Positions 11,129 through 59,124 of a stretch of DNA of 60,407 nucleotides are shown here, in pieces. The stretch covers positions 1-60,407 of the forward strand of contig CAIRBK010000084.1 of the NCBI GenBank assembly GCA_903876795.1, read 5' to 3'. Below the pieces are notes generated by a model. It worked only from the letters and a program-made list of their open reading frames with translations. It did not search any database and had not been told where the DNA came from. Origin of the DNA: an uncultured Verrucomicrobiota bacterium (lineage in GTDB: Bacteria > Verrucomicrobiota > Verrucomicrobiia > Opitutales > Opitutaceae). Numbering within the stretch: the stretch's first letter is position 1; each line of letters begins with the position of its first letter. The position numbers and the translations under genes were made by a program.

Positions 11129-11799
11129 ATACGAAAACCACCCCGATCCGGCTCGTCATTGTTGACGACAGCGAACTTGTCCGTGTCGGCCTCCAAACCC
11201 TGCTGCAAGGAGCTACCGGACTCCAACTGTGCGGCGTCGCCGCGTCGGCCGCGGAAGCTGTGGTCATCTGCAAACGCGAGCACCCCGATGTCGTGCTTCT
11301 CGACATACGACTGCCGGATGGCAACGGCATCGAAGTATGCAAACGCCTGATGGCCGACGGCGGCGATACGCGCGTGATTTTCCTTACATCAAGCTCTGAA
11401 CAGGAAATCGTGGACGAGGCCATCCATGCGGGTGCCCACGGTTATCTGCTCAAGGAAATCAACACCCCTGCCCTCCTGCAGGGTATTCGTGACGTGGCCG
11501 CGGGAAGATCGATTCTCGATCCGCAAATCACCGCCCGCCTGATGGATCTTTTAAAAAATGAACGCACCAAACCCCTCGTCGCCAGCCTCTCACCCCAGGA
11601 ACAACGGGTCCTCGCGTTGATAGCGGCTGGACACACCAACAAGGAAGTGGCGGCCGAAATGGGACTGGCCGAAAAAACGGTCAAAAACTACCTCAGCACC
11701 GTCTTCGAGAAACTCCATGTAACCCGCCGCGCGCAGGCGGCCGCCTATTACACTCAGGCCGCCGCGCGCTCACTAGGGTCCAACGGCCCTAGTCGTTAG
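11125..11799 (+). CDS. NarL/FixJ-family response regulator (REC plus LuxR-type HTH)
   Basis: 224 aa. The receiver domain (residues ~8-125) has the acidic pocket VDDSE, the phospho-acceptor Asp in VVLLDIRLPDGNG and the conserved Lys in GYLLKEI. The C-terminal LuxR/GerE HTH is LSPQEQRVLALIAAGHTNKE, then VAAEMGLAEKTVKNYLSTVF. It is the cognate regulator of the preceding kinase. Its stop codon lies inside one of three palindromes (11773-11867) that separate it from the pseudopilin-like genes. This suggests that it controls those genes or itself, which is an inference from position. Confidence 0.94.
   Translation: MNTKTTPIRLVIVDDSELVRVGLQTLLQGATGLQLCGVAASAAEAVVICKREHPDVVLLDIRLPDGNGIEVCKRLMADGGDTRVIFLTSSSEQEIVDEAIHAGAHGYLLKEINTPALLQGIRDVAAGRSILDPQITARLMDLLKNERTKPLVASLSPQEQRVLALIAAGHTNKEVAAEMGLAEKTVKNYLSTVFEKLHVTRRAQAAAYYTQAAARSLGSNGPSR
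11773..11792. promoter_or_regulatory. Palindrome CTAGGG-N8-CCCTAG at the 3' end of the response regulator gene
   Basis: CTAGGG (11773-11778) and CCCTAG (11787-11792) form a perfect 6-bp inverted repeat. The same half-sites recur at 45725-45742 ahead of the polysaccharide operon. It could be an operator for the NarL-type regulator or an RNA hairpin; the sequence alone does not decide. Confidence 0.45.
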
Positions 11800-11826
11800 G
11801 GTCCAAAAACAGGCTTAAGACCCTAA
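11796..11826. promoter_or_regulatory. Inverted repeat TTAGGGTC-N15-GACCCTAA
   Basis: A perfect 8-bp inverted repeat, 11796-11803 with 11819-11826. It contains the stop codon of the response regulator (11797-11799). It carries an AGGGTC core like the neighbouring palindrome. There is no T-run, so a terminator role is unlikely. Confidence 0.5.
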
Positions 11827-11840
11827 CCATTCGGGCCGGA

Positions 11841-56086: not shown

Positions 56087-58018
56087 ATGTCGATGACTCC
56101 GCTCGAAGAACTACGCCACTCCGCCTCGCACATCCTCGCGACGGCCATCCTGCGCATCTACCCCGATGCCAAACTCGACATCGGTCCGCCCACCGACACC
56201 GGCTTCTACTACGACATCGACCTCGATCATAAACTCACCCTCGAAGACCTCCCCAACATCGAGGAGGAAATGAAAAAGGTCGCCGGCGAAAACCAGCCGT
56301 TCCTCCGCAAGGAAGTCTCCCGCGAGGAGGCGATCGAGATCATCCAGTCGCGCGGTCAGGAACGCTACAAACTCGGCCGTCTCGCCGACATTCCCGAGGG
56401 AGAAAAAATCTCCTTCTACCAAAACGGCGAGTTCATGGACCTCTGCGCCGGCACCCATGTGCGCTACTCGTCCAAGCTGAAAGCCTTCAAGCTCCTTTCC
56501 ATCGCCGGTGCCTACCACCGCGGCGACGAGAAGAACAAACAGCTCCAACGCATCTACGGCACCGCCTTCCCCACCAAGGAAGAACTCGCCCAATACCTCG
56601 AGCGCATCGAGCAGGCCAAGGCCCGCGACCACCGCAAGCTCGGCCGCGATCTGAAACTCTTCCACATCGACGAGGACGTCGGCCAGGGCCTCATCCTCTG
56701 GACTCCCAACGGCGCCATCGTGCGCCAAGAACTTCAGAACTTCATCAGCGACGAACTGCGCAAGCAGGGCTATTCGCAGGTCTTCACCCCGCACATCGGC
56801 AAGCTCGCGCTCTACAAGACCTCCGGTCACTTCCCCTACTACAAGGAGTCGCAGTTCCCCGCCATACCCGAGCCCGATCAATTGGCGCAAATCGCCTCCG
56901 AGGGTTGCGGCTGCGCCGAGATGACCTCACGGCTCGAAGCCGTGTCCTCCCACTTTGCCGCCGCCATCAACGAGCGCGCCGGCAAGGAGGTCATCGGCCA
57001 GGACCGAGTCATGGACCCCACGCGGCTCCTGGACGGCTTCATGCTGAAGCCGATGAACTGCCCGCATCACATCAAGATTTTCGCATCGCAGCCGCATTCC
57101 TACCGCGACCTGCCCGTGCGCCTCGCCGAGTTCGGCACCGTGTACCGCTGGGAGCAGTCCGGCGAGTTGAACGGCATGACGCGCGTGCGCGGCTTCACCC
57201 AGGACGATGCCCACCTCTTCTGCACGCAGGAGCAGGTCGCCGCCGAAATCCAGGGCTGCCTTTCCCTCGTAAAAACCGTGCTGACCACGCTCGGCATGTC
57301 CGACTACCGCGTGCGCGTCGGCCTGCGCGACCCCGACGGAAAGAAATTCGCCGGCAATCCCGAGCAATGGGACCTCGCAGAGGCCGCCTGTCGCGACGCC
57401 GCCAAGACCCTCGGCGTGCCCTTCACCGAAGAGCCCGGCGAGGCCGCCTTCTACGGACCGAAGATCGACTTCGTCATCAAGGACGTGATCGGCCGCGAAT
57501 GGCAGCTCGGCACCGTGCAGGTGGATTATGTGCTCCCCGTGCGCTTCGACCTTCACTACATCGGCGCCGACAACGAAAAGCACCGCCCCGTGATGATCCA
57601 CCGCGCGCCCTTCGGTTCGATGGAGCGTTTCTGCGGCGTTTTGATCGAACACTTCGCCGGCGACTTCCCCGTGTGGCTGGCCCCCGAACAGGTGCGCCTC
57701 GCCCCCATCAGCGACAAGATCGGCGACTACGGCACCCAGCTCCTGAAACAACTCCGCGACGCCGGCATCCGCGCCACGCTAGACGAGCGCAACGAAAAGC
57801 TCGGCGCCAAACTCCGCCGCGCCGAACTTGAAAAGGTGCCCTACACACTCGTACTCGGCGGCAAGGAAGCCGAGACACAGTCCGTTTCCGTCCGCAGCCG
57901 CGCCAAGGGCGACGAAGGCACGATGCCCTTCGCCGACTACCTCGCGCGCGTCGTTGACGAGATCAAGACCCGCTCCCTGCCAGTTAAGATTGAGCGCACC
58001 GTCGAGAAAAAGCCCTGA
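56087..58018 (+). CDS. thrS: Threonyl-tRNA synthetase lacking the TGS domain
   Basis: 643 aa. It begins directly with the editing domain (LRHSASHILATAILRIYPDA, with HxxxH, and DLCAGTHVRYSS); the usual ~60-residue N-terminal TGS domain is absent, and the preceding gene ends 48 bp upstream, leaving no room for it. The class II core has YKTSGHFPYYKESQFPAIPE, LKPMNCPHHIKIFASQPHSY (zinc Cys), LAEFGTVYRWEQSGELNGMT, RVRGFTQDDAHLFC, and a C-terminal anticodon domain (FPVWLAPEQVRLAPISDKIG). About 65 extra residues (EPDQLAQIASEGCGCAEMTS to VIGQDRVMDPTRLLDGF) sit between motif 1 and the zinc Cys. It is followed by a REPIN. Confidence 0.95.
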   Translation: MSMTPLEELRHSASHILATAILRIYPDAKLDIGPPTDTGFYYDIDLDHKLTLEDLPNIEEEMKKVAGENQPFLRKEVSREEAIEIIQSRGQERYKLGRLADIPEGEKISFYQNGEFMDLCAGTHVRYSSKLKAFKLLSIAGAYHRGDEKNKQLQRIYGTAFPTKEELAQYLERIEQAKARDHRKLGRDLKLFHIDEDVGQGLILWTPNGAIVRQELQNFISDELRKQGYSQVFTPHIGKLALYKTSGHFPYYKESQFPAIPEPDQLAQIASEGCGCAEMTSRLEAVSSHFAAAINERAGKEVIGQDRVMDPTRLLDGFMLKPMNCPHHIKIFASQPHSYRDLPVRLAEFGTVYRWEQSGELNGMTRVRGFTQDDAHLFCTQEQVAAEIQGCLSLVKTVLTTLGMSDYRVRVGLRDPDGKKFAGNPEQWDLAEAACRDAAKTLGVPFTEEPGEAAFYGPKIDFVIKDVIGREWQLGTVQVDYVLPVRFDLHYIGADNEKHRPVMIHRAPFGSMERFCGVLIEHFAGDFPVWLAPEQVRLAPISDKIGDYGTQLLKQLRDAGIRATLDERNEKLGAKLRRAELEKVPYTLVLGGKEAETQSVSVRSRAKGDEGTMPFADYLARVVDEIKTRSLPVKIERTVEKKP

Positions 58019-58026
58019 ATTCCAAC

Positions 58027-58112
58027 GTCGGAGCCCGTTTACCGGCGATGAAAACCGTCCGAAAACCCGAGTGTATTCGTATCTCGATCATCGCCCGTAA
58101 ACGGGCTCCGAC
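58027..58112. repeat. REPIN-like inverted repeat, copy 1
   Basis: The left arm (58027-58050) begins GTCGGAGCCCGTTTAC and ends GGCGATG. The right arm (58089-58112) is its reverse complement with one mismatch in 24. The spacer is 38 bp. It lies 8 bp after the thrS stop and 15 bp before the TPR gene start. A related copy lies at 58610-58696. Confidence 0.85.
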
Positions 58113-58127
58113 CTTCCGACACTCCCC

Positions 58128-58607
58128 ATGACCGACTGGAAACCCGAACTCGACGCCATCGTCGGCTCCCGCCATGGCGGCCGTGCCGACCATGTGCCCG
58201 ACTTGCTGCGCAAGCTGGACGCGCGCTTTCCCAATGTGGCGGAAATCCACCACCAGCTCGCCTGGACCCTCGAAACCGCCGGCAAGGCCGGCGACGCCCT
58301 GCCTCACTACGAAAAGGCCATCGCGCTCGGCCTAAACCCCAACGAACACGCCAACGCGCTCATCGGTTTCGCCACCACGCTGCGAACGCTTGGCCAGGCC
58401 GGTCGGGCGGCCGAGGTGCTCCGCTCGGGCCAGGTGCAGTTTCCCGACAACCGCGAGTTCGATGTTTTTCTCGCTCTCACGCTGCACGATCTCGGACAAC
58501 ATGCCGAGGCGCTGCGCCTCGCGCTTACCTCGCTCGCCGACACGAGCGATGATCCGGGCCTCACCGCTTATCAACGCGCCATCCGCTACGCGGCGGGGCA
58601 GCTCTGA
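58128..58607 (+). CDS. TPR-repeat protein
   Basis: 159 aa, no signal peptide. TPR-like helical pairs are visible: VAEIHHQLAWTLETAGKAGD then ALPHYEKAIALGLNPNEHAN, and LIGFATTLRTLGQAGRAAEV then LRSGQVQFPDNREFDVFLAL, followed by LTLHDLGQHAEALRLALTSL. This short type matches the small 'tetratrico-peptide' hypothetical proteins found in many bacteria; the function is unknown and presumably protein-protein binding. It is flanked on both sides by REPIN-like repeats, the second starting two bases after its stop codon. Confidence 0.85.
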   Translation: MTDWKPELDAIVGSRHGGRADHVPDLLRKLDARFPNVAEIHHQLAWTLETAGKAGDALPHYEKAIALGLNPNEHANALIGFATTLRTLGQAGRAAEVLRSGQVQFPDNREFDVFLALTLHDLGQHAEALRLALTSLADTSDDPGLTAYQRAIRYAAGQL

Positions 58608-58609
58608 AC

Positions 58610-58696
58610 GTAGGAGCCCGTTTACGGGCACTATGGGTGATATGGTAACGACTCGGTAGTCGGCATGGTTTTCATCGCCCGTAAACGGGCTCCTAC
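58610..58696. repeat. REPIN-like inverted repeat, copy 2
   Basis: The left arm (from 58610) is GTAGGAGCCCGTTTACGGGC. The right arm (58673-58696) is CATCGCCCGTAAACGGGC then TCCTAC, its reverse complement. The spacer is longer and differs from copy 1, except that both copies keep GATG/CATC and GTTTTC-type sequence next to an arm. Confidence 0.85.
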
Positions 58697-58713: not shown

Positions 58714-58743
58714 AAAAGACCCCGTCTCGCGACGGGGTCTTTT
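58714..58743. terminator. Bidirectional Rho-independent terminator (TPR gene / glnB)
   Basis: A 13-bp perfect stem AAAAGACCCCGTC / GACGGGGTCTTTT with loop TCGC (58727-58730). A- and T-runs on the two sides allow function in both directions between the convergent TPR and glnB genes. Confidence 0.92.

Positions 58744-58773: not shown

Positions 58774-59124
<351 letters not shown>

Follow-up and report, generated by a model that had tools for sequence, protein, structure and literature searches.

Two closely related inverted-repeat units stand on either side of a single gene for a TPR protein, raising the questions of what these units are, which enzyme would have moved them and whether the enclosed gene moved with them. 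The window (the whole stretch of 60,407 nucleotides analysed here) is contig C84 of a 3.57-Mb draft assembly of 103 contigs with 98% completeness. An earlier note on this DNA took the units for REPIN-like elements, and saw in them a hint of a resident RAYT transposase outside the window or of a composite mobilisation of the enclosed gene. REPINs, GTAG REPs and the association of RAYTs with REPs are already well known. A RAYT has been shown, in E. coli and for two enzymes of group 3, to bind a single-stranded REP through its GTAG and hairpin and to cut nearby (PMC8266576). REPINs, which have two such ends, are believed to be copied into new sites that are mostly intergenic (PMC3116915), and Opitutus terrae, a verrucomicrobium, has been reported to be strongly enriched in GTAG repeats (PMC3733652).

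Two REPINs in the gaps flanking a TPR gene

Each unit is an inverted-repeat dimer of a 24-nt palindrome with the layout GTAGGAG-stem-loop-stem-CGATG, forming two inverted head-out REPs within one hairpin, and both lie exactly where the earlier note had placed them (Table 1). The arms of REPIN 1 are complementary at 23 of 24 positions, as that note had counted, and a repeat search lengthens them to 28 nt at 93%. In REPIN 2, 58610-58629 pairs with 58677-58696 at 20 of 20 positions; its left arm is without the GATG tail, carrying ACTA there, and has three mismatches to the 24-mer. The GTAG at one palindrome end, by which the GTAG REP superfamily is recognised, is present in REPIN 2 and the main consensus and reads GTCG in REPIN 1. 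We identify the two units, which lie in opposite orientation and one in each gap, as REPINs composed of GTAG-type REPs paired head-out.

Table 1. Features in and around the REPIN-flanked TPR locus (window coordinates)
Feature	Position	Strand	Remarks
thrS, threonine-tRNA ligase	56087..58018	+	upstream neighbour; TIGR00418, 675 bits, above cut-off
REPIN 1 (86 bp)	58027..58112	.	two head-out REPs, GTCGGAGCCCGTTTAC-type, between thrS and TPR gene
REPIN 1 arms	58027-58050 (+), 58089-58112 (-)		24 nt each
TPR protein gene	58128..58607	+	480 bp, 159 aa; PF12688, 4.1e-16; resident, outside mobile unit
REPIN 2 (87 bp)	58610..58696	.	directly 3' of TPR stop codon
REPIN 2 arms	58610-58633 (+, tail worn), 58673-58696 (-)
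G+C hairpin, A/T-flanked	58714..58743	.	separate, outside REPIN; by eye; absent from terminator scan output
P-II-like nitrogen regulator gene	58774..59112	-	convergent neighbour; NF008111, 3.3e-51, 172 bits, under cut-off 202

The 17-nt core occurs at four places in the window with up to three mismatches against 0.39 expected, a number attained by none of 100 shuffles, and an inverted-dimer scan of the 60-kb window returned three dimers, REPIN 1 and REPIN 2 among them, against a shuffled mean of 0.33. A chance hairpin is ruled out by this core excess and by the genome-wide copies described below. The third dimer, at 11784-11838 (CGGCCCTAGTCGTTAGGGTC / GACCCTAACCATTCGGGCCG, 85% paired), is unlike REPIN 1 and REPIN 2 in sequence. 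Each copy was folded as RNA on both strands: the energies run from −48 to −56 kcal/mol, with z-scores of −8.1 to −10.2, and in every case not one of 200 shuffles did as well. No T-run follows REPIN 1 or REPIN 2, so that the pattern of an intrinsic terminator, a G+C-rich hairpin with a T-run directly behind it, is not seen at either; a terminator scan gave two hits against 1.0 expected, within the TPR gene and in the REPIN 2 spacer, and an Rfam search gave three weak matches only, all far under gathering scores. The separate hairpin downstream of REPIN 2 probably serves both convergent genes as a bidirectional terminator.

The likeness of the two REPINs, 77% over about 97 nt by BLAST, includes the spacer, whose own similarity score was equalled by one of 5000 shuffles, with the orientation picked after the repeat search. 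Among the BLAST matches listed, the closest relative of each REPIN is the other one, the other four matches spanning an arm only. The shared spacer and this mutual nearness raise the possibility that one REPIN arose from the other by short-range copying, with its orientation reversed.

A REP family dispersed through the genome and its relatives

In the genome-wide count that the earlier note had called for, the stem-relaxed core (up to one mismatch) matched 59 places in the assembly against none in a reversed control. A second pattern, which prescribed the head and tail and left most of the stem open (up to two mismatches), gave 67 matches against 10 in the control, and in its 17 exact matches 61 of the 68 freely varying stem cells pair despite differing stems. 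The commonest core is CCTGCTTGCAGG, and the main 24-mer is found at 51 places with up to three mismatches; the window core CCCGTTTACGGG is a minor variant, its 24-mer reaching 13 places at the same tolerance, other variants included. The fetched REP places comprise 17 head-out pairs and 41 singles under a loose pair rule, by which arms lie within five mismatches of one of four typed cores. Pair length is 84-87 bp in the five pairs with CCCGTTTAC-like arms and 75-80 bp in 10 of the 12 others.

Beyond this assembly, the main 24-mer (up to three mismatches) was present in 41 of 141 genomes, none of which gave a control match. Within the family of the window it occurs in 40 of 90 genomes, its own included, and among the 51 genomes from other families of the order at one place in a single genome. 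A scan of named genomes with the arm of the window, which may omit records of its own genome, returned six stretches in two MAGs labelled 'Verrucomicrobia bacterium', a second arm completing a 75-86-bp pair at five of the six places; no RAYT match at E<=1e-3 was found in 8-kb pieces around these stretches.

The same REP flanks RAYT genes in relatives

In G007, a genome of the same genus, the gene order is secA-REPIN-RAYT-REPIN, with paired REPs on both sides of a gene for a protein of 195 aa that scores 92.8 bits against the 80-bit cut-off of the RAYT model NF047646 and matches E. coli TnpA-REP (PDB 4er8) at 5.2e-8 over residues 43-171. The combination of secA, REP and RAYT recurs in G042, G084, G028 and G085, making with G007 five genera and five of 30 RAYT loci, and GTAGGAG or GTGGGAG REPs lie in the flanks of 11 of the 30, with stems that vary among genomes. 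Relatives of the G007 RAYT retain the His-x-His and Tyr motif stretches. Thus the same REP stands beside a RAYT in the same genome in G007, G042, G084 and others. Taken together with the dispersed copies and head-out pairs, this association indicates that reading the units as REPs and REPINs, as the earlier note did, is right. Two side observations come from these loci: the secA stop codon TAG in G007 (contig C62, L068:1478-1501) comes from the GTAG of a REP, and in G075 (L106:1351-2526) a RAYT has next to it an extended series in which the REPs GTAGGAGCGCGTTTACGCGCGATG and GTAGGAGCGTGCTTGCGCGCGATC alternate.

In the window's own genome, secA is followed by a REPIN without a RAYT behind it and then by a convergent membrane-protein gene. 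The distance of the secA REPIN from the stop codon differs in each genome, the next gene in the own genome differs, and inspection by eye shows that in G010, G002 and G012 secA is followed by palindromes unrelated to this REP (the secA search covered fragmented drafts); for these reasons the secA slot is suggestive only, and orthology of the secA REPINs by exact position is unsupported because the distances differ. In a tree of 39 RAYTs, the 11 GTAGGAG-associated RAYTs fall within one branch (99/99), with the C24 and C88 genes of the own assembly outside it, the C24 row being long and unsure. The secA-side genes are ungrouped in a largely unresolved part of the tree (four changes, with 103 of 500 shuffles as low), leaving a single origin of the secA-side RAYTs unsupported by the tree.

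RAYT-like genes of the assembly

The resident RAYT expected by the earlier note was borne out to the extent that RAYT-like genes exist, and failed in that none has the REP of the window in the flanks examined. NF047646 matched four genes, which lie on contigs C24, C33, C75 and C88; in descending order the four scores are 79.4, 68.3, 35.2 and 34.9 bits (none above the cut-off), and an IS200-like gene on C86 scored 66.7 bits against a cut-off of 55. The REP was absent from 15-16 kb around each of the C86 and C24 genes, from about 1.5 kb per side of the C88 and C33 genes, and from one side of the C75 gene; the contig end truncates this gene at its start, leaving its other flank unseen. Contig C75 does carry a REP (C75:3031), some 2.3 kb past the end of that gene. 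In the flanks covered, which include only one side of C75, the assembly thus yielded no RAYT flanked by GTAGGAGCC REPs, the arrangement that the earlier note had proposed to look for. When the own genome was queried with the G007 RAYT, nothing matched at E<=1e-20. A search for remnants near the fetched REPs, with five RAYT queries against 306 kb of own sequence, recovered only genes already known as RAYT-like or IS200-like, plus a single match of 23 residues (E 0.46).

The C24, C88 and C33 genes have their own, different palindromes on both sides (by eye). Three RAYT-like genes (L024:8240-9075, L035:1260-1990 and L036:1200-2140) are each bracketed by palindromes that differ from one another, indicating that several REP/RAYT-like pairs coexist in the genome. 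The IS200-like gene (150 aa; L023:5640-5950, on C86 of the own genome, G000) adjoins repeated GGTATGGCGATGGGCCTTTGGCCCGG palindromes, another REP-like family. As candidate mobilisers we rejected the IS200-like gene, from whose surrounding 15 kb the REP is absent, and the C24 RAYT, whose adjoining palindromes differ.

Single REPs predominate in the own genome

Within three mismatches of the main 24-mer, the own genome holds 6 pairs and 39 singles, accounting for all 51 places. Hand counts of pairs to singles in genomes with a REP-flanked RAYT were 18:5 (G042) and 9:8 (G007); in G029, where no RAYT match was found, the ratio was 19:24. Fisher tests of the own genome against G042, G007 and G029, with places taken as independent, gave 2e-7, 0.002 and 0.002, making it the most singlet-rich of the four genomes compared. 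This pair rule is strict and scores mixed-stem pairs as singles, the looser rule giving the 17 pairs and 41 singles noted above. The excess of singles fits what would be expected if singles are worn-out pairs, as described for REPINs in PMC3116915, and the own REPIN population looks decayed. By contrast, the G029 counts indicate that pairing alone is not a marker of RAYT presence.

These counts bear on the possibility that a cognate RAYT is present in this genome but unassembled, or that one of the resident RAYTs (C24, C33, C75 or C88) mobilises the REPINs in trans. A small gene may be missing from a draft of 103 contigs with 98% completeness, four RAYT-like genes are encoded, and the C75 gene is cut at a contig end with a REP 2.3 kb away. 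However, the different palindromes around the C24, C88 and C33 genes, the position of C24 (subject to its unsure row) and C88 outside the branch of GTAGGAG-associated RAYTs, and the lowest pair-to-single ratio of the four genomes all argue the other way, and we judge this explanation unlikely, if still the strongest of the alternatives.

The TPR gene is stationary

Beyond REPIN 2 lies a convergent pair of genes for the P-II-like regulator and an ammonium transporter. The TPR protein is present in 38 of 141 genomes, the own genome included, where it has a single match. Across fragmented drafts in which some loci are cut by contig ends, thrS is found in the TPR locus in 24 of 30 loci examined (own included); almost all of these lack the REPINs, and 16 of the 30 loci contain glnK. 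The gap between thrS and the TPR gene shrinks to 11 bp in G011 and 0 bp in G003. The REP scan was positive in both TPR gaps only in the own genome and in G010, which has one REPIN per gap with stems CCTGC and CGAGC, unlike the own stems. G001 has a CGAGC-stem REPIN 3' of the TPR gene, missed by the scan owing to an extra base, and G002, G004, G008 and G009 have other inverted repeats in one or both gaps (by eye). REPIN presence or absence thus differs between species, and the TPR gene is resident and stationary.

Unrelated palindromic dimers (GTGGGAGCGAGC.., TTACACAGAGGGCACGAG.., GTAGGCCGC.., GTAGCGCAGACTTCCAGTCTGC..) were seen in the TPR gaps of sister species (L167, L168, L170-L173). Nine sister stretches, 112.6 kb in total, yielded 12 dimers in a crude scan, six of them inside TPR gaps, a lead only since the scan was post hoc and the stretches were centred on the gaps.

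Whatever their mobile origin, the hairpins might have been retained for a role in RNA, stabilising or damping the thrS and TPR transcripts in a manner resembling 3' processing. Both REPINs directly follow stop codons and fold strongly on both strands, and sister species carry unrelated palindromic dimers in the same gaps. Against this, most relatives lack REPINs there, the gap being 11 bp in G011 and 0 bp in G003, neither copy is followed by a T-run, and the Rfam matches are weak; we consider such retention rather improbable. A composite unit, in which two REPINs would carry the TPR gene, is suggested by inverted copies flanking one gene and was one of the readings offered by the earlier note, but it is hardly credible given a thrS-TPR neighbourhood that persists without REPINs, the glnK genes at 16 of 30 loci and the single TPR match in the own genome. 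The alternative named in that note, a local duplication of a terminator-like hairpin in a genome with two copies and no RAYT-like gene, would suit two copies that are mutual closest relatives among the matches listed, and is ruled out by dozens of dispersed copies whose stems vary yet pair, as well as opposed by the REPs around RAYTs in relatives, the four RAYT-like genes and the lack of a T-run.

A REPIN population that may have outlived its transposase

We therefore regard it as highly probable that the REPINs are non-autonomous miniature elements inserted around a stationary TPR gene, their cognate RAYT apparently lost and mostly singles left. Two GTAG-type REPINs would have entered the two gaps, the copying being done in trans by a RAYT, an enzyme of the Y1/HUH type that reads GTAG and the hairpin on single-stranded DNA. 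The enzyme would cut near the bound REP, after which two-ended REPINs would be copied to new, mostly intergenic, places. Loss of the cognate RAYT in this lineage would then leave mostly single REPs and some pairs, REPIN 1 and REPIN 2 among them, and transcripts that read through the REPINs are predicted to carry strong hairpins downstream of thrS and of the TPR gene. In this scheme we infer movement by RAYT, loss rather than missing data, and the order of insertion.

A more specific version holds that the REPIN population outlived its transposase: an ancestral secA-side RAYT was lost, its orphans wear to singles, and the gaps are re-used by successive REP families. With the REP on C75 and the G029 counts weighed in, we put this version forward tentatively, as somewhat less than an even chance. 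If true, it would provide a natural before-and-after series for testing REPIN persistence without RAYT: G007, with a REP-flanked RAYT, and the genome of the window, in which none was found, share a genus and a REP, making decay after loss measurable. A model of REPIN persistence counts RAYT evolution (gain and loss) among the main issues that it leaves untreated beyond an elementary appendix (PMC8049555). The less ordinary feature here is the probable absence of a cognate RAYT beside a still recognisable REPIN population, with a close relative that has it; in the literature searched with a few wordings, no paper on RAYT loss in Verrucomicrobia was found.

Comparison with known systems

E. coli REPs have a bulged stem (PMC8266576), unlike the perfect stem here, although E. 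coli TnpA-REP (PDB 4er8) is the protein matched by the G007 RAYT. The REPINs of Pseudomonas fluorescens SBW25 (Bertels and Rainey 2011, PMC3116915) are likewise inverted REP pairs forming one hairpin, mostly extragenic, with single REPs as remnants and with the same REP beside a RAYT, here in relatives; they differ from the present case, in which singles are more numerous than pairs and the assembly yielded no cognate RAYT. The GTAG REPs of Opitutus terrae and other bacteria (Di Nocera 2013, PMC3733652) share the GTAG end, a short stem-loop, head-out (HH) dimers and extragenic location, and the two extra bases and 3-bp tail are in the style of GTAG-1/2, whereas REPIN 1 has GTCG for GTAG; the O. 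terrae family is compared here by description only. In the group 3 REPtron Mb of Marinomonas sp. MWYL1 (PMC8266576), the stem letters differ from those here. The REP layout is shared and consists of GTAG, two bases, a 5-bp perfect stem and a TTTA loop, the arm of the window being GTAG-GA-GCCCG-TTTA-CGGGC, and the T12-A15 pairing of REP Mb (PMC8266576) fits the C-G/T-A swaps at the same place here.
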